Of a stretch of 54,330 bases of DNA, positions 19,064 to 28,185 are shown piece by piece. Source of the DNA: Dehalococcoidia bacterium. Lineage in GTDB: Bacteria; Chloroflexota; Dehalococcoidia; JAUSIH01. Made by a program: the position numbers and the translations under genes. The stretch is taken from assembly GCA_030648205.1 (NCBI GenBank), contig JAUSIH010000036.1:1-54330 (forward strand), in the 5' to 3' direction. The number at the start of each line of letters is the position of its first letter. The first letter of the stretch is position 1. Under the pieces are notes generated by a model that was given only the letters and a program-made list of their open reading frames with translations, was not told the DNA's origin and did no database searches.

Positions 19064-19939
19064 ATGATGCGACTTGGTGCTATTTTCCCTCAGACGGAGA
19101 TCGGCGCGGACCCGGGCGTCATCCGCGAGTATGCCCAGACGGTGGAGGGGCTTGGCTATCACCACCTGGGCGTCTATGACCACGTCCTCGGCGCCAATCC
19201 GGCCTCACGGCCCGGCTGGCAGGGCGCCTACACGCACAGGGAGATGTTCCACGAGCCGTTCGTTCTTTTCGGCTATCTCGCCGCCGTCGCGCCCAGGCTG
19301 GAGCTTGTCACGGAGATACTAGTCCTGCCGCAGCGCCAGACGGCGCTCGTCGCCAAGCAGGCCGCCGAGGTGGACATCCTCACCGGCGGCCGCCTTCGCC
19401 TGGGCGTCGGCATCGGATGGAACGCCGTGGAGTTCGAGGCCCTCGGCGAGGACTTCCACACTCGTGGACGCCGCGTGGAGGAGCAGGTGCGCGTGCTTCG
19501 CGCGCTGTGGACGAACGAGCTTGTGACGATCAAAGGGCGCTGGCACACCATCACCGACACAGGCATCAATCCGCTGCCCGTCCAGAGGCCGATTCCGGTC
19601 TGGATGGGCGGGACCGCGGACGCGGCGCTGAGGCGCATCGCGCGCATCGCCGACGGATGGTTCCCCCGCGAGGGGCCTACCGACAGGGGAAAGGCGCGAC
19701 TGGAGGCGTTCCGTGCGTATGCGCGCGAGGCGGGACGGGACCCCGCGAGCATCGGCGTAGAGGGCCGCATCAGCGTCGCCCGGCGCACGCCGGACGAGTG
19801 GATGGCGGAGGCGTCGGCGTGGCGCACCCTCGGCACGACGCATATCGCGGTCAACACCATGGGCGCGGGATTCCGGTCCGTCCGCGACCATCTGAACGCG
19901 CTGCGCCAGTTTAAAGAAGCAGCCACACCCCTTATCTAA
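19064..19939 (+). CDS. LLM-class (luciferase-like) F420-type oxidoreductase
   Basis: A 291-residue bacterial-luciferase-fold protein. It begins MRLGAIFPQTEIGADPG and has YHHLGVYDHVLG, AAVAPRLELVTEILVLPQR, GGRLRLGVGIGWNAVEFEAL and PIPVWMGGTADAALRRIARIADGWFP, the pattern of the F420-dependent TIGR03619-like subgroup. It would reduce or oxidise a substrate with a deazaflavin or flavin cofactor. The second ATG at 19067 may be the true start because GAGGTGA sits very close to the first. It follows valS closely but functionally fits the metabolic block downstream. The cofactor is inferred from family only. Confidence 0.88.
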   Translation: MMRLGAIFPQTEIGADPGVIREYAQTVEGLGYHHLGVYDHVLGANPASRPGWQGAYTHREMFHEPFVLFGYLAAVAPRLELVTEILVLPQRQTALVAKQAAEVDILTGGRLRLGVGIGWNAVEFEALGEDFHTRGRRVEEQVRVLRALWTNELVTIKGRWHTITDTGINPLPVQRPIPVWMGGTADAALRRIARIADGWFPREGPTDRGKARLEAFRAYAREAGRDPASIGVEGRISVARRTPDEWMAEASAWRTLGTTHIAVNTMGAGFRSVRDHLNALRQFKEAATPLI

Positions 19940-20152: not shown

Positions 20153-20752
20153 ATGGACAAGTTACGCATCCTTGATCCCGTGGTGGAGTCCCCGAAGGAA
20201 GACAAGGGCCTCGCGCCGCTTCTGGACAGCGTGGAGGGCAAGTCGGTTTTCTTCCGCATTCAGTGGGACGCCTATGACGTGTTCACGAACCGCTTTCGTG
20301 AGCTGCTGGAAGAACGCGCTCACCCGCGCGAGGTCACCACGCTGGACCTGCGCTACGAGTCGCCGGACTACGTGCCCTACGCCGACCGCCGCAATAAAGA
20401 GAAGTGGACGAAGAAATTCGACGGCTACGCCGCGAAGGCGGACTGGGCCGTCATGGGCCTGGCGGCCTGAGGCTCCTGCACGGCGTGGTGTATCCACGAT
20501 ACGATTGACATGCAGAAGCGCGGCGTGCCCACGGTGACGCTCGTCACCGAGCAGTTCGTCTCGCTGGCGAAGGCGGCCGCGAAGTCGCTCGGCTATCCGG
20601 ACATCCCGCTGGTCGTCGTGCCGCACCCGTTCGAGACGATGCCCCGTGACCGGGTGCGCAAGCTGGCGGAGCAGAAGTACGACGAGATTGTGGGCAAGGT
20701 GGTCAAGGCCACTCCTCATCGCGTGCCGGGGAAGCCAGAGGCGGCGCGATGA
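20153..20752 (+). CDS. UGSC-type selenoprotein 1 (in-frame UGA read as Sec106)
   Basis: The frame from ATG 20153 (TGGAGGTAGC upstream) reaches TGA at 20468-20470 and continues, in the same frame, to a TGA at 20750-20752, giving 199 residues if the first UGA is selenocysteine. The junction reads VMGLAA-U-GSCTAWCIHDTIDM, an exact UGSC motif. The second half (KRGVPTVTLVTEQF) has no start of its own that would give a full domain. The second UGSC gene at 24652 aligns on both sides of its own UGA, and a SECIS-like hairpin follows. UGSC (seleno)proteins are an annotated family without an established reaction; U-x-x-C suggests thiol/selenol redox chemistry. It overlaps the next gene by four bases (ATGA). 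Confidence 0.87.
20468..20515 (+). promoter_or_regulatory. bacterial SECIS-like element of selenoprotein 1
   Basis: A hairpin downstream of the UGA: CGTGG (20484-20488), loop TGTAT, CCACG (20494-20498), with a possible asymmetric lower stem CTGCA (20476-20480)/TGCAG (20511-20515). The apical loop starts 18 bases after the UGA and has G at its second position. This fits known bacterial SECIS rules (loop 16-37 bases from UGA, G among the first two loop bases). It would recruit SelB with Sec-tRNA. Confidence 0.72.
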
Positions 20753-21807
20753 GCGCCAGTGTCCACGAGGTTGACCAGGACATCGAGCAGGTCTTCGATT
20801 ACGCGTGCGCGCACGGCTGGAGCGACGGCCTGCCGATTATTCCGCCCACAGAGGAGCGGGTCGCGCGGATGCTGGCGGCGGCGGACCTGAAGCCGGACGC
20901 GGTGATCGCCCACCTGCCGCCGCGCAGGGGTGACGTGACGGTGGAGAAGTTGGCGGTGAATGCGGTCATGGCCGGGTGCACGCCGGCCTGCTTCCCCGTC
21001 ATCATAGCGGGAACGGAGGCGTGCGACGACCCGAACCTCAATATCTACTCCCTGAACACGACCACGAACTCCGTTGTCCCCGCGTTCATCATCAACGGCC
21101 CCATCCGAAAGGAGCTGGACATCAACTGCGGCTGGGGCTGCCTGGGGCACGGCTGGCGCGCCAATGCGACGATAGGCCGCGCGATGAGCCTGATCATGCT
21201 GAACGTGTCGGGGCGTATTCCGAAGCAGGTCTGCAAGAGCACGCACAAGCAGCCCGGCGCGTACGCCTTCTGCTTCGGCGAGTACGAGGAGCTCAGCCCG
21301 TGGGAGCCGCTGCACGTGGAGCGCGGGTTCAAGCGCGAGGACAGCACCATCACCGTGCTGGGGCCGTCGGGGACAACGAACGTGATTGACCACGACAGCC
21401 AAACGGGGGAGGATGTGCTGTACACCATAGCCTCGTCCTTGATGTGCATCGGCAGCAACAACTTCAGCCCGTACTACGGCGAGGGCGAGATGGGTGTGGT
21501 GCTGTGCCCGCCGCACGCGGACCTGATCGCCAAAGAATTTCCCACCAAACAGAAGGTGAAGGAGTTCCTGCTGCGCGAGACATCCAAGATTCCGTTGAGC
21601 TGGCTGCCGGAGCGCCGACGGAAGGCGCTGGTCAAGAAGAGCAGCGGCGGGCAGGTGCAGGGCGACTTCGCCCGCATGGCGGCCAGGGCGGACCAGTTCC
21701 TTGTCGTCGTCGCGGGAGGCCTGGGCGGCTACCACTCAGTCGTTTTGCCCACCTTTGGCACATACGCCGTGACAAAGCTCATCCACCGCCCAGCGCGAGC
21801 GGGGTAG
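20749..21807 (+). CDS. UGSC-partner protein A (unnamed conserved family)
   Basis: A 352-residue soluble protein, not assignable by me to a named family. It is clearly paralogous to the gene at 23511. Shared features are GWSDGLPIIPPTEERV (23511 copy: GWTDGLPVAPPTEERV), VEKLAVNAVMAGC, RANATIGRAMSLIMLN, STITVLG, SNNF and a C-terminal FGTYAVT. Cys residues cluster in MAGCTPAC and in INCGWGCLGHGW, the latter a C-x3-C absent from the other copy. No signal peptide or membrane segment. Its ATG overlaps the selenoprotein stop (ATGA), so the two proteins are probably made together and may form a complex. Function is unknown; a redox or lyase partner for the selenoprotein is inference. Confidence 0.82.
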   Translation: MSASVHEVDQDIEQVFDYACAHGWSDGLPIIPPTEERVARMLAAADLKPDAVIAHLPPRRGDVTVEKLAVNAVMAGCTPACFPVIIAGTEACDDPNLNIYSLNTTTNSVVPAFIINGPIRKELDINCGWGCLGHGWRANATIGRAMSLIMLNVSGRIPKQVCKSTHKQPGAYAFCFGEYEELSPWEPLHVERGFKREDSTITVLGPSGTTNVIDHDSQTGEDVLYTIASSLMCIGSNNFSPYYGEGEMGVVLCPPHADLIAKEFPTKQKVKEFLLRETSKIPLSWLPERRRKALVKKSSGGQVQGDFARMAARADQFLVVVAGGLGGYHSVVLPTFGTYAVTKLIHRPARAG

Positions 21808-22013: not shown

Positions 22014-23384
22014 ATGAGCCTGGAAGCGCGTATCGCCAAACACGCCGCCGCGGTGCGATTCGAGGACTTGCCCAGGGAAGCAGTGGATGCGGCGAAGAAA
22101 GAAATACTGTGGGCGCTGGGCACCTCCGTCGCGGGCGCGGGCGCGACCGGCTCTGAGATGGTGCTGACAGTGGTGCGCGAGCTCAGCCGAGGTTGCACCG
22201 GCGACGCTACCATCATTGGGTACGAAGAGCGGGCGCCGGCGCTGCTGGCGGGCTTCGCCAACGGAGTGTTCGCCAAGGCCGTCGAATACGAGGACAAGCA
22301 CTGGTTTGGCAACACGCACGCCTACGCCATCGGCGTCGCGGTGGTGCCCGCGGCCTTCGCTGTTGGCGAGCATCTGGGCGGTGTTGATGGCAAGGCGCTG
22401 GTCAATGCCGTGGCGGTGGCGACGGATGTTCAGGCGCGCCTCGTCAATGGGGCGCCCAATGCCATCAAAACGCCCTTCAACGCCACCTATATGTTCTCGC
22501 ACTTCGGGGCGACTATCGCGGCGGCCAAGCTCCTTCGCTTGACGGAAGAGCAGATGATTGATGCCCTGGGTATCGCCTATACACAGGCGGCGGGCACCTT
22601 TCAGGCCCATCACGAAGGAACCCTGGCCGTCCGCATGCAGATGGGCTTCTGCGTTCGCAATGGCGTCTTCGCCGCGCTCATGGCGAGGGCCGGCATAGAT
22701 GGCCCCCACCAGTTCCTGACCGGGCGCAGTGGCCTGTACCCAAGCTTCTATAAGGAGTGCGCTGAAGAAGCCATCGTGAAAGACCTGGGGGCTATGTTCT
22801 GGGGAACGAGGCTGGGCTTCAAGGGCTATCCCTGCTGCGCCGCCATGCACCAGGCCCTGGATGCGATGTTCCAGGTGAAGCAGGCCCATAAGATCAGGCC
22901 GGAGCAGGTCGTGGCCGTTGACGTCTACGGCTCCCCCAGCATGGCTATTACCTGTGCACCAATTGAGGAGAAGCGGCGCCCACGGAATCACGTGGAGCAG
23001 GAGTTCAGCCTGCCGTGGGCGGCGGCCTGCGCCCTGACAGACGACCGTCTCGACCTGAGCCACTTCCAGGACGCCGCTCTGAAGGACGCGGCGAAGATGG
23101 CCCTCGCGCGGAAAGTCACCGCACACACAGACCCGAAGGACGCCCAAGTCTATGCGGTTGTCACGCTGACCGATGGCCGGAAGCTCACGTCGGCGCGCAT
23201 AGGCCCGCCAACGGGGCACCCCGATAAGCCGATTCCCCTTGCGGAGCTTATCAGACGCTACGACGACTGTGTGACATACAGCCCCCGGCCTCTGGCTCAC
23301 GAGAAGACAAAGCGAGCAAGAGACCTGGTGCTGGCGCTTCCGGACGTTCCGGACGCAACGGAGGCGATAAAGCTGCTTGCCTGA
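22014..23384 (+). CDS. MmgE/PrpD-family protein
   Basis: A 456-residue protein with the all-helical N-terminal MmgE/PrpD domain and the alpha/beta C-terminal domain. Typical segments are LPREAVDAAKKEILWALGTSVAGAG (residue run split here: EILWALGTSVAGAG), GFANGVFAKAVEYEDKHW, AYAIGVAVVPAAFAVGE, GTFQAHHEGTLAVRMQMGFC and GFKGYPCCAAMHQALD. Known members are 2-methylcitrate dehydratase and cis-aconitate decarboxylase; many are uncharacterised isomerases or dehydratases. It lies between the two mirrored selenoprotein modules, so a shared pathway for an organic acid is likely but unproven. GAGGTG precedes the ATG. Confidence 0.9.
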   Translation: MSLEARIAKHAAAVRFEDLPREAVDAAKKEILWALGTSVAGAGATGSEMVLTVVRELSRGCTGDATIIGYEERAPALLAGFANGVFAKAVEYEDKHWFGNTHAYAIGVAVVPAAFAVGEHLGGVDGKALVNAVAVATDVQARLVNGAPNAIKTPFNATYMFSHFGATIAAAKLLRLTEEQMIDALGIAYTQAAGTFQAHHEGTLAVRMQMGFCVRNGVFAALMARAGIDGPHQFLTGRSGLYPSFYKECAEEAIVKDLGAMFWGTRLGFKGYPCCAAMHQALDAMFQVKQAHKIRPEQVVAVDVYGSPSMAITCAPIEEKRRPRNHVEQEFSLPWAAACALTDDRLDLSHFQDAALKDAAKMALARKVTAHTDPKDAQVYAVVTLTDGRKLTSARIGPPTGHPDKPIPLAELIRRYDDCVTYSPRPLAHEKTKRARDLVLALPDVPDATEAIKLLA

Positions 23385-23510: not shown

Positions 23511-24632
23511 ATGACCTCAGGCCAAACCTCAGCCAAGGTCCTCGAATTCACCGATGCCTGGGACTGGCTTGACCACGCCTATCAGAACGGATGGACCGAT
23601 GGCCTGCCAGTCGCGCCACCCACGGAGGAGCGCGTCGGCGCAATGGTCGAACACGTAAAGCGCCGCCCGGACGAGCTGCTCGGCCTCATTCCGCCTATGC
23701 AGGGCAAGGCGACCCTCGAGAAGGTCGCCATCCAGGCCGTGATGGCGGGCTGCGCGCCCGAGCACTTCACGGTCGTCCTCGCCGCACTGGAGTGCATGCT
23801 CTGCGAGGAGGACAAGGAGCACTTCAACCTCAAGGGAGTGCAGGACACCACGAACCCCGTCACGCCGCTGGTCATTGTCAGCGGCCCGGCGGTCAAGCAG
23901 CTTGGCTTCCACTACAAAGAGAACGCCTTCGGCGGCGTCTCCCGCGCCAACGCCGCGGTGGGTCGGGCCGTGCGGCTTATCCTGTGGAACCTCGGCGGCG
24001 CCCGCCCCGGACAGACGGACATGACGCATCTGGGCCATCCCGGCAAGTACTCGTTCTGCATCGCCGAGAACCCGGACATGGAAGAGAACCCGTGGACGAA
24101 GCTGAACGTCGAGTGGGGCTACCCCGCCGACCAGAGCACCGTCACCGTCTTCGGCTGCGAGGCGCCGCGCAACGTCCTGACGCTCACCTCCGTGGGCCGC
24201 GAGGGCAACCCCGGCCCGGAGCGCGCTCTGCGCTTCATCGCCCGGAGCATGTCCACGCCCGGCTCCAACAACTTCCACTTCATGGGGCAGGTACTGGTCA
24301 CCTTCGGCCCGCGCACCGTTGCGCAGTTGCACCAGGCGCGCTATACCAAAGAGACCGTCCGCCGCTTCCTGTTCGACCAGGCGCGCAACCGCCTCGGCGA
24401 CCTTATCCGCGACGGCTTCTACAACCCCGCCGTGGGCAATGACACGTGGCGGGACTACGCCCCCTGGGTTGACCAGACGAACCCGCAGACGATGGTGCCC
24501 ATCGTCGAGCGCGAGGCGAACATCCATATCACCGTCACCGGCGCGGCGAGCCTGCCCTGGAACTCCGTCTGCCACGGTTGGGGCAACTTCGGCGCGTACG
24601 CGGTGACTCGGCCCATCAAGTTCCCCAAGTAG
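23511..24632 (+). CDS. UGSC-partner protein B (paralogue of partner A)
   Basis: A 373-residue soluble protein, the second member of the unnamed family. It shares GWTDGLPVAPPTEERV, LEKVAIQAVMAGCAP, SRANAAVGRAVRLILWNL, STVTVFG, SNNFHFMGQ and the C-terminal GNFGAYAVTRPIKFP with the copy at 20749. Differences are informative: it has ECMLCEE (C-x2-C) and lacks the CGWGC segment, and it carries an extra region near WRDYAPWVDQTNPQTM. It starts its own transcript and is followed after 19 bases by selenoprotein 2, the reverse order of the first module. A complex with the selenoprotein is a reasonable guess; no reaction is known to me. Confidence 0.82.
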   Translation: MTSGQTSAKVLEFTDAWDWLDHAYQNGWTDGLPVAPPTEERVGAMVEHVKRRPDELLGLIPPMQGKATLEKVAIQAVMAGCAPEHFTVVLAALECMLCEEDKEHFNLKGVQDTTNPVTPLVIVSGPAVKQLGFHYKENAFGGVSRANAAVGRAVRLILWNLGGARPGQTDMTHLGHPGKYSFCIAENPDMEENPWTKLNVEWGYPADQSTVTVFGCEAPRNVLTLTSVGREGNPGPERALRFIARSMSTPGSNNFHFMGQVLVTFGPRTVAQLHQARYTKETVRRFLFDQARNRLGDLIRDGFYNPAVGNDTWRDYAPWVDQTNPQTMVPIVEREANIHITVTGAASLPWNSVCHGWGNFGAYAVTRPIKFPK

Positions 24633-24651: not shown

Positions 24652-25233
24652 ATGATGAAGCTTCGAGTCCTCGACCCCACGGGTGAGGCGGCGCAGCCGG
24701 AGAGCAAGCTGGCGCCGCGCCCCACGGACCTCACCGGCAAGGTGCTGTGGTTTGTGGACGGCCGCGGCCATGTGGAGAACAGCGTGCCGGGAATGAACCG
24801 CATCTTCCGCGTCTGGAAGGAGCGACTCCAGAAGGAGTACAAGCTCGGCGACGTGCGCTACGTGCGGACGGACAACATCGCCTCGCCGTTCCGCCACGGC
24901 AAAGAGACGTTCGAGGAGATCGTCCGGACGGCAGACGTGGTCGTCAACGGCGTTGCGCTCTGAGGCGGCTGCACGTCGTGCAGTGTGCACGATGCAGTCC
25001 AGATGGAGCGGCGCGGCGTGCCGACCGTCACCCTCGCCCACGACGTCTTCGAGAGGGCCGCGCACGCCCAGGCGAAGGTCATGGGGGCGCCGGACCTGCC
25101 CATCGCAGTCGTCTCCCAGCTCATCTACAACCGTGGCACGGACGAAGAGGTGAAGAAGGCGGCGGACGCGCTATACCCGCTGGTGGTGAAGAGCCTGACC
25201 TCCGGCGTCGCGAAGCCTCTGCCGCAAAGGTAG
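24652..25233 (+). CDS. UGSC-type selenoprotein 2 (in-frame UGA read as Sec104)
   Basis: From ATG 24652 (GAAGGAGG upstream) the frame meets TGA at 24961-24963 and continues without shift to TAG at 25231, giving 193 residues. The junction reads NGVAL-U-GGCTSCSVHDAVQM, a UGGC variant that also forms U-x2-C-x2-C. It matches selenoprotein 1 on both sides: KLRVLDP at the N-terminus, then HDxxxMxxRGVPTVTL after the Sec. The compact hairpin after the UGA is listed separately. U-x2-C-x2-C recalls the redox centre of glycine-reductase-type selenoproteins as I remember it, but there is no other similarity to claim. A coding-like tail follows the TAG. Confidence 0.87.
24961..24997 (+). promoter_or_regulatory. 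bacterial SECIS-like element of selenoprotein 2
   Basis: An upper stem TCGTGC (24976-24981), loop AGTGT and GCACGA (24987-24992) is stacked on a lower stem CTGCA (24969-24973)/TGCAG (24993-24997) with a 2-base bulge. The loop begins 18 bases after the UGA, exactly as in selenoprotein 1, with G at its second position. Confidence 0.8.
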
Positions 25234-25370: not shown

Positions 25371-25622
25371 ATGACCCTGAAAGAAGAAATTCACCGGCTG
25401 ATTGACGTGCTGCCCGAGAAAGAGTTGCCGACAGTGCGTCGTTTCGTGCAGTACGTCCGGCTCCTCCATGAGGACCCCGTTTTCCGCGCGCTTCTGGAGG
25501 CGCCTCTGGACGACGAGCCGGAGACCCCGAAGGAAGCAGCCGCCGTACGCGCAGCGCGGCGCGCGTTGAAGCGCGGCGATGTCGTCGCGGACGCCGACCT
25601 CGCCCGCGAGCTGGGGCTGTGA
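25371..25622 (+). CDS. type II antitoxin (partner of ParE/RelE-type toxin)
   Basis: An 83-residue acidic protein beginning MTLKEEIHRLIDVLPEKEL. The helical N-terminus (LPTVRRFVQYVRLL) resembles the DUF2281-like/RHH-like antitoxins. The charged C-terminal half (ALKRGDVVADADLARELGL) would wrap the toxin. AAGGAG stands before the ATG. Its stop overlaps the toxin GTG by four bases, typical of antitoxin-toxin pairs. The family is assigned mainly by position and size. Confidence 0.8.
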   Translation: MTLKEEIHRLIDVLPEKELPTVRRFVQYVRLLHEDPVFRALLEAPLDDEPETPKEAAAVRAARRALKRGDVVADADLARELGL

Positions 25623-25876
25623 CTTGGCGCGTCATCTGGACAGGCCCGGCCGCTCACGATATGCGCCGGCTGGACCGCCAGATAGCGAAACGCATCCGCG
25701 ACAGGGCCCTGCGCTTCGCCGAAACGGGACAGGGGGACATCAAACGGCTGCAAGGACATGAACAGGAGTGGCGCTTGCGCGTCGGAGACTGGCGCGTGAG
25801 GCTGACCTTCGACGTCCACGACGGAACAATGAACATCCTGCGGATTCACCATCGCAGCGAGGGATATCGGAAATAG
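25619..25876 (+). CDS. ParE/RelE-superfamily toxin
   Basis: An 85-residue basic protein starting at GTG 25619. It has the RelE/ParE fold pattern: WRVIWTGPAAHDMRRLD, GDIKRLQGHEQEWRLRVGDW and VRLTFDVHDGTMNILRIHHR, ending EGYRK. RelE members cut mRNA at the ribosome and ParE members poison gyrase; which applies here cannot be read from sequence. It is co-transcribed with the antitoxin just upstream. Together they form a small addiction module next to the selenoprotein block. Confidence 0.88.
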   Translation: MTWRVIWTGPAAHDMRRLDRQIAKRIRDRALRFAETGQGDIKRLQGHEQEWRLRVGDWRVRLTFDVHDGTMNILRIHHRSEGYRK

Positions 25877-26853: not shown

Positions 26854-28185
26854 ATGGACGAACTACGGAAAGCTCAGCCTCTCTACGGCGTACGCGTTTT
26901 AGACTTTGGACAGGCGTACGCTGCGCCGTGCGCCGCGCGCCTCCTCGCGGACATGGGCGCGGATGTGGTCAAGGTCGAGCCGCCCAGCGGCGACTTCTGC
27001 CGCCTCAGCGGTCGCGTGGAGGGCGACAGCGCCGTCTTCCTCGGTCTCAACCGGGGCAAGCGCAGCATATCGCTGGACCTCACCACCGATAAGGGCCGCG
27101 CGGTCGCCATAAAACTCGTGAAGAAGGCGGACGTGCTCGTCGAGAACTTCCGGGTCGGCGTGCTGGACAAGATGGGGCTGGGTTACGAGGCCACCAAGAA
27201 GCTGAACCCGCGCCTCATCTACTGCTCCATCTTCTCCTATGGAAGCACCGGCCCGTGGGTCCGCCGTCGCGGGGGCGACCCGTGGGCGCAGGCCGTCAGC
27301 GGCATCGTCGCCAGCATGGGTGTCAAAGGCCAGCCGCCGCAGATGATCGGGCACTCCGTCATCGACTTCTCCATCGGCGCCATGACGGCGTTCGCAATCA
27401 TGAACGCGCTGTTTCAGCGTCAGGTTACGGGCAAGGGCACGCGCGTGAGCACCAACCTGATCCACGCGGCCCTCTTTCTGCAGGAAGGCGCGTTTCACGA
27501 CTACACGGTGGACGACGTCCTGCACGTCAAGTGGGGACGCGGCCTTCGCGGCCTGTTCCCCTTCGGCCCGTATCCGGCCAAGGACGGAGACGTGCTGACC
27601 ATCTACGGCCAGGACGACGTGGAGTGGGCGGACATCTGCTCCATCCTGGGCATCGAGCACCTCCTGGCGGACGAGCGGTACGACACGCTGGAGAAGCGCA
27701 TCGAACGCAAGCCCGAGTTGTACCCAATTCTGGACGAGGCGTTCAGGAAGAAGACGCGCGAGGAGTGGAAGGACGCGTTCCGGGCGCGGAACTACCGGTG
27801 CGATCCGTGCCTCAACTACCAGGAACTGATGGAGACCGAGCAGTTCAAGGCGAACAATATGCTGCTCGACGTGGACCACCCCACGGAGGGCAAGCTGCGC
27901 CTGCTGGGCAACCCGGCTCAGGTAAGCGAGAACAGCGAGTGGCGCGGCGACACGCGGCACCCTCCGCTCATCGGTGAGCACTCGCGCGAGGTCATGAAGG
28001 AGGCCGGCTACACCTCTGCGCAGATCGAAGCGCTCATGTCGGAAGGTGTTGCCGTTGAACCGGAGCCCGCCTCCATCAAGATCAGAGGCCGCGACAAGTC
28101 CATGCGGTCGGCCACGCAAGTCTCCGACAAGAGCCGCATGCAAGCGCAAGCGCAGGCCAACCAGGACCAGCTACAGCGGAAGTAA
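26854..28185 (+). CDS. CaiB/BaiF family CoA-transferase
   Basis: A 443-residue class III CoA-transferase. Signatures are GVRVLDFGQAYAAPCAARLLADMGADVVKVE (shown in part: ADMGADVVKVE), LNRGKRSISLDL, ADVLVENFRVGVLDKMGLGY and the catalytic-Asp region RRGGDPWAQAVSGIVASMG. The last 40 residues (from about 405) are a hydrophilic, Gln/Ala-rich tail beyond the usual family end. Members move CoA between carboxylic acids. Its place after the selenoprotein/MmgE block suggests activation of the organic acid handled there; this is inference. The gene has its own start 98 bases after the HEPN gene, with a TACAAT at 26799-26804 but no good -35. Confidence 0.93.
   Translation: MDELRKAQPLYGVRVLDFGQAYAAPCAARLLADMGADVVKVEPPSGDFCRLSGRVEGDSAVFLGLNRGKRSISLDLTTDKGRAVAIKLVKKADVLVENFRVGVLDKMGLGYEATKKLNPRLIYCSIFSYGSTGPWVRRRGGDPWAQAVSGIVASMGVKGQPPQMIGHSVIDFSIGAMTAFAIMNALFQRQVTGKGTRVSTNLIHAALFLQEGAFHDYTVDDVLHVKWGRGLRGLFPFGPYPAKDGDVLTIYGQDDVEWADICSILGIEHLLADERYDTLEKRIERKPELYPILDEAFRKKTREEWKDAFRARNYRCDPCLNYQELMETEQFKANNMLLDVDHPTEGKLRLLGNPAQVSENSEWRGDTRHPPLIGEHSREVMKEAGYTSAQIEALMSEGVAVEPEPASIKIRGRDKSMRSATQVSDKSRMQAQAQANQDQLQRK

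Follow-up and report, generated by a model that had tools for sequence, protein, structure and literature searches.

To our knowledge, no reaction is known for the UGSC family of selenoproteins. As a family, UGSC is already established (PF24696 in Pfam, NF041046 in NCBIfam). A 2008 ocean survey ranks it with the selenoprotein families most abundant in metagenomes from aquatic habitats, assumes a thioredoxin-like fold, and describes a fusion of UGSC with a domain termed 'Unknown_1' (PMC2398784). The locus presented here belongs to the same family; it has the same selenocysteine (Sec) motif and the same kind of hairpin.

The second group of closely related systems comprises GrdB of glycine, sarcosine and betaine reductase and PrdB of D-proline reductase. 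Like UGSC, and at the same position, these proteins carry Sec in a beta-Sec-helix-'GIPTV'-beta segment and have a second subunit. The similarity to GrdB/PrdB (PF07355) is remote, however, and the UGSC partner is, by profile comparison, unrelated to GrdE.

As for numbers, the bacterial maxima so far are 57 selenoprotein genes in the Olavius delta 1 symbiont and 63 in a Methylomirabilota MAG, both known as selenoprotein-rich genomes (PMC13188914). The 96 selenoprotein genes of Emiliania huxleyi were in 2020 called the largest set of any organism (PMC7539508). The bacterium investigated here and one of its relatives likewise possess unusually many selenoprotein genes. The published figures comprise all selenoprotein families of an organism (25 families in E. 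huxleyi), whereas ours, 41 and about 140, refer to a single one.

The UGSC genes of the window and their UGA codons

The window, i.e., the whole stretch of 54,330 nucleotides which was analyzed, contains two UGSC genes. The initial annotation had recognized the first; it did not mention a second copy in the window, a partner gene, the expansion across the genome or any link to GrdB. UGSC gene 1 extends from 20153 to 20752 on the forward strand and codes for 199 residues with Sec at position 106. A Shine-Dalgarno-like GGAGG is located upstream of its ATG. As had been claimed, the frame has one interruption only, the TGA at 20468-20470 (forward strand), and the surrounding residues, initially given as AA-U-GSCTAWC, read GLAA-U-GSCTAWCIHD. 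The expectation that automated calling would split the gene is borne out as well: standard ORF calling cuts it into 20153-20470 and 20510-20752. Because gene 1 also ends at a TGA (20750-20752), the same triplet denotes both Sec and stop within one gene.

The suggested search against UGSC profiles had a divided outcome. PF24696 matches residues 6-182 of the gene 1 protein with 115 bits (E=4.7e-33) at a gathering cut-off of 25 bits. With the NCBIfam equivalog NF041046 the proteins of the window score 93 and 88.5 bits, respectively, below its curated cut-off of 125 bits. Of note, this cut-off leaves out both proteins in spite of their clear membership in the Pfam family; NF041046 may have to be revised.

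UGSC gene 2, a UGGC form, is located 4.5 kb downstream on the same strand (24652-25233; PF24696, E=1e-39) and has its own partner. Its TGA at the UGGC motif (24961-24963, forward strand) is predicted to be read as Sec. Automatic ORF calling divides this gene into 24652-24963 and 24985-25233.

A hairpin of the bacterial SECIS type had been proposed for gene 1, and its position and shape are as described. CGTGG-TGTAT-CCACG occupies 20484-20498 of the forward strand (CGTGG 20484-20488, loop TGTAT 20489-20493, CCACG 20494-20498), starts 13 bases past the UGA and has a G at loop position 2. By itself it is weak evidence, with a z of -1.3 over 50 nt and 20 of 200 shuffles folding equally well. Over 160 distinct Sec-encoding relatives the evidence from the alignment is strong. 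The five pairs, 17-31 to 21-27 when numbered from the T of TGA, are all formed in 83% of them; in 1000 synonymous-codon resamplings full pairing averaged 22% and reached 31% at the highest. Pairings slid out of this register score much lower. Compensatory changes occur at two pairs (G21-C27 to C21-G27, G18-C30 to C18-G30), and loop position 2 is a G in 84% of the relatives. The hairpin of gene 2, CGTGC-AGTGT-GCACG (24977-24991, forward strand), displays a compensatory change with respect to gene 1. A SECIS-type hairpin just after the UGA is thus indicated by covariation. An Rfam scan of the whole window at gathering level returned no matches.

Might the TGA be an ordinary stop, a sequencing error or the mark of a pseudogene, and the gene two genes? 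The two frames from standard ORF calling and the weak fold of the lone gene 1 hairpin would fit. Yet all 41 complete paralogues in this genome have exactly one in-frame TGA, in the same aligned column, which is without exception the U of UG[S/A/G/V]C. Because conservation runs across the UGA in these 41 paralogues, two separate proteins, which had been named as a refuting outcome, are very unlikely. Homologues point in the same direction. Outside this genome the column is Sec in nearly all loci, and Cys takes its place in Natrialba asiatica (locus L152), a Sphingomonas MAG (L135) and two others (L195, L198); the first position of the motif is Sec or Cys in these homologues, and the in-frame UGA aligns with Cys. 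Finally, the genome encodes three parts of the machinery which the initial annotation had proposed to look for: SelB (351 bits, cut-off 242), SelA (564 bits) and a tRNA-Sec with the anticodon TCA (69 bits). The two other refuting outcomes named there, a genome devoid of SelB or tRNA-Sec and a lack of homologues with Cys or Sec at this site, therefore do not apply. The reading as an ordinary stop is already contradicted and can be practically dismissed.

The numerous read-through genes could also be taken to indicate that TGA is a sense codon genome-wide. Against this, gene 1 stops at a TGA, in-frame TGA is restricted to one column, and the genome has a tRNA-Sec and a SECIS hairpin with covariation. 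This reading is contradicted, too, and retains next to no probability. Sec machinery, the TGA column of the paralogues, Sec/Cys homologues and hairpin covariation agree with the original proposal: on the evidence of these sequences gene 1 is a UGSC-family selenoprotein translated through UGA.

Two observations concern the Sec machinery. The gene for SelA (C1:29744-31084; locus L038, C1:29690-31100) is divergent from and adjoins a UGSC gene (C1:28985-29485), and tRNA-Sec lies about 1.5 kb from another one (contig C102, locus L051), which suggests that machinery and family are transferred together or co-regulated. Further, the haloarchaeon Natrialba asiatica has a Cys-form UGSC-partner pair, i.e., a form usable without Sec machinery.

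The partner protein and the multiplication of the pair

The partner is a protein of about 350 residues without a match in Pfam; a cysteine in its sequence MAGC is invariant. Partner protein 1 (20749-21807, forward strand; 352 residues, Cys77 in MAGC) overlaps the stop of gene 1 in ATGA. Partner protein 2 (23511-24632, forward strand; 373 residues, likewise no Pfam match) is co-directional with gene 2. The genome has 57 partner matches. Of 35 separate Sec UGSC genes 34 adjoin a partner and are co-directional with it; six more are fused. UGSC is thus adjacent to or fused with a partner in 40 of 41 cases. Fusions recur in Betaproteobacteria and Chloroflexota, and the 'Unknown_1' domain of PMC2398784 is presumably this partner. 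Pairing and fusion, as read from the genes, support a two-subunit organization.

Invariant in 50 full-length partners are Cys77 (MAGC), Gly117-Pro118 and Arg144. Comparison of the partner profile with that of UGSC indicates no relation. Three UGSC-partner fusions of this genome have no UxxC (C16:17933-18349, C43:1739-2233 and C14:12468-12986, with DHRP, ENRP and HAG-V). All three retain Cys77 of the partner; Glu66 is gone in two.

In the genome of 2.69 Mb we find 46 UGSC-family matches, which consist of 41 complete Sec forms, two fragments at contig ends and the three motif-less fusions. The closest pairs of paralogues are at most 65% identical, hence co-assembled strains do not explain the 41 copies. 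For a genome of this size, so many Sec paralogues from a single family are exceptional. In a class-wide sample two thirds of the genomes have no UGSC and most of those with any have 1 to 4. Because 8 candidates per genome were scored (this genome has 50 candidates, a relative termed G027 has 207), the count shows only that these two genomes stand out.

G027, a member of the same class (5.0 Mb, 96% complete, 7% contamination), exceeds even these numbers. It showed 208 UGSC candidates; 150 were scored and all 150 matched. From 138 stretches covering most candidates, with two overlaps removed, we counted 141 distinct UGSC domains in which a TGA falls on a UxxC-like site; in 140 the motif is UGxC or UGxU. 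Any two of these domains are less than 90% identical. One domain (G027:C101:30937-31443, locus L109) has two Sec codons in a single motif, UGTU. The checked count of about 140 is above the published maxima of 63 for bacteria and 96 for any organism. If the counts hold, a single family makes these two genomes the richest in selenoproteins among the published genomes compared. Known UGSC members differ from those described here in this scale, and also in that the gene 1 protein falls below the NCBI equivalog cut-off.

A tree of the partners indicates not one recent import but a number of bursts, each specific to a lineage, both in this genome and in G027; the genome's own copies need 11 changes compared to 36 when shuffled. 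The expansion by paralogy, like Sec decoding and the pairing with the partner, is documented by the gene sequences themselves.

Fold and kinship with GrdB

AlphaFold2 predicts five beta-alpha units for the UGSC protein of gene 1 (pLDDT 91, pTM 0.83) and places Sec106 between a strand (98-104) and a helix (107-122). The structural neighbors of the model, with Z of about 10 or less, are generic Rossmann/flavodoxin-like proteins, and because they are generic the match names no specific family. For a fused UGSC-partner homologue the prediction is a single body of high confidence (pLDDT 92, pTM 0.92); the Foldseek list for this model is taken up by the UGSC domain. When the profiles of UGSC and of the partner were searched against solved structures, chance matches only or none resulted, and a solved GrdB structure was not found.

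These models bear on the view that UGSC is a general thiol/selenol oxidoreductase of thioredoxin-like fold, acting for instance in peroxide or disulfide defence, with the partner as its redox client. UxxC indeed resembles CxxC, and PMC2398784 gives a likely thioredoxin-like fold and conserved Cys in the fused domains. The confident model, however, has the element order (beta-alpha)5 instead of the beta-alpha-beta / beta-beta-alpha order of thioredoxin, and its best structural neighbors are Rossmann/flavodoxin-like. Among the neighbors listed there is no thioredoxin, an absence that carries no weight in itself. Moreover, profile comparison points to GrdB, and some 40 to 140 paralogues that have diverged, and of which many adjoin solute-binding proteins, are more in keeping with substrate-specific enzymes than with a single redox housekeeping protein. 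We consider a thioredoxin-like oxidoreductase distinctly unlikely; the predicted model supports a (beta-alpha)5 sandwich that is not a thioredoxin fold.

The relationship to GrdB emerges from profiles. The Pfam GRDB model (PF07355) ends right before Sec and finds no match in this genome. We obtained the Sec segment by reading through UGA in class-mates. With hhalign, UGSC matches the Sec-bearing C-terminal domain of GrdB/PrdB at 93% (E 3e-7), Sec aligned on Sec. Controls gave at most 0.6% over 30 column shuffles and 1.6% for a reversed profile, and with the eight motif residues masked the match is still 78%. When 309 single sequences were ranked, 15 of 17 GrdB-type proteins scored above all 292 unrelated ones, and the top 15 were all GrdB-type. 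Profile evidence thus supports a remote homology of UGSC to the Sec domain of GrdB/PrdB. The class-mates also contain small GrdB-like selenoproteins (L209-L218), mostly with U-P-x-C; Pfam GRDB covers the pre-Sec part only.

The partner was also compared with a small profile of GrdE, which in glycine reductase is the pyruvoyl subunit. At 0.1% the two are unrelated, i.e., there is no sign of a GrdE-type pyruvoyl subunit. Because of this, UGSC with its partner would not be simply another glycine reductase, and the chemistry is not directly transferable.

Neighboring genes and a proposed enzyme

A co-directional LLM-class F420-dependent oxidoreductase precedes gene 1 (19064-19939, forward strand; TIGR03619, 271 bits), an MmgE/PrpD family protein lies between the two UGSC-partner pairs (22014-23384, forward strand) and a CaiB/BaiF-type CoA-transferase of family III follows downstream (26854-28185, forward strand), the latter two identified by Pfam profile matches. 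A pair of short frames that overlap each other (83 and 85 aa; 25371-25876) resembles, by sequence only, an antitoxin and a RelE/ParE-type toxin.

Genome-wide, the leading neighbors of UGSC genes are SBP_bac_5 receptors and permeases, MFS transporters, CoA-transferase III, enoyl-CoA hydratases and LLM monooxygenases. Of the 55 SBP_bac_5 genes, 19 are located no more than 5 kb from a UGSC gene, where 7.5 are expected (p=7e-5); when the distance is limited to 2 kb, no excess is seen. The neighbor family met most often in other phyla is that of the TctC receptors (24 of 128 neighbor proteins scanned). The enrichment of binding proteins is moderate and, because these families are large, supporting evidence only; an association of UGSC with transporters is supported.

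We propose that UGSC and its partner constitute a family of two-subunit GrdB-like selenoenzymes, two copies of which are in the window, which attack imported small molecules reductively, each pair probably with its own substrate; we consider this about as probable as all other readings together. In the analogy with glycine and D-proline reductase, the roles of GrdB and PrdB are those given in PMC13188914. The small subunit, UGSC, would be the GrdB/PrdB-like alpha/beta domain in which Sec opens the helix after the third strand, three residues ahead of the conserved Cys of UxxC. The partner, as the large subunit, would pack on it and complete an active site common to both, contributing the invariant Cys of MAGC, Glu66, Arg144 and a Pro-Trp/His segment. 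The partner would hold and activate the imported molecule and the selenolate of UGSC attack it. By analogy, a C-N, C-O or similar bond may then be cut reductively as in glycine and D-proline reductase. Selenium would be freed through the neighboring Cys of UxxC, and a thiol or NAD(P)H system would reduce it again. Probably each paralogous pair handles a different small molecule, imported by the solute-binding transporters encoded nearby.

A two-subunit selenoenzyme need not be a reductase. Sec or Cys might serve as the nucleophile of an isomerase, hydrolase or lyase, as in enzymes of the Asp/Glu racemase type. Features that would suit such an enzyme are the place of the nucleophile, where a helix begins within an alpha/beta sandwich, the invariant Cys of the partner and neighbors such as CoA-transferase III and MmgE/PrpD. 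But the nearest sequence relatives found are GrdB-type reductases, the conserved pair in UxxC implies a redox step, and a search for PF01177, the Asp/Glu racemase family, gave no match in the genome, not even among the UGSC genes. We therefore regard non-reductive chemistry as rather improbable, and return to the reductive two-subunit enzyme.

Four points were not found in the UGSC literature searched and appear to be new: how far the family has expanded, its near-obligate partner, the relation to GrdB and the non-thioredoxin fold. Because ordinary ORF calling breaks the genes at UGA, UGSC families and their pathways are largely invisible. With a defined partner, a probable kinship to GrdB and 41 to 140 paralogues beside transporters, the chemistry of UGSC becomes directly testable. 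On balance, it is an even call that UGSC and its partner represent a new superfamily of two-component GrdB-like selenoenzymes, which, having radiated into dozens to well over 100 paralogues per genome in Chloroflexota, would make up the largest selenoproteomes known and may serve a selenium-dependent catabolism of dissolved organic matter that is diversified by substrate.
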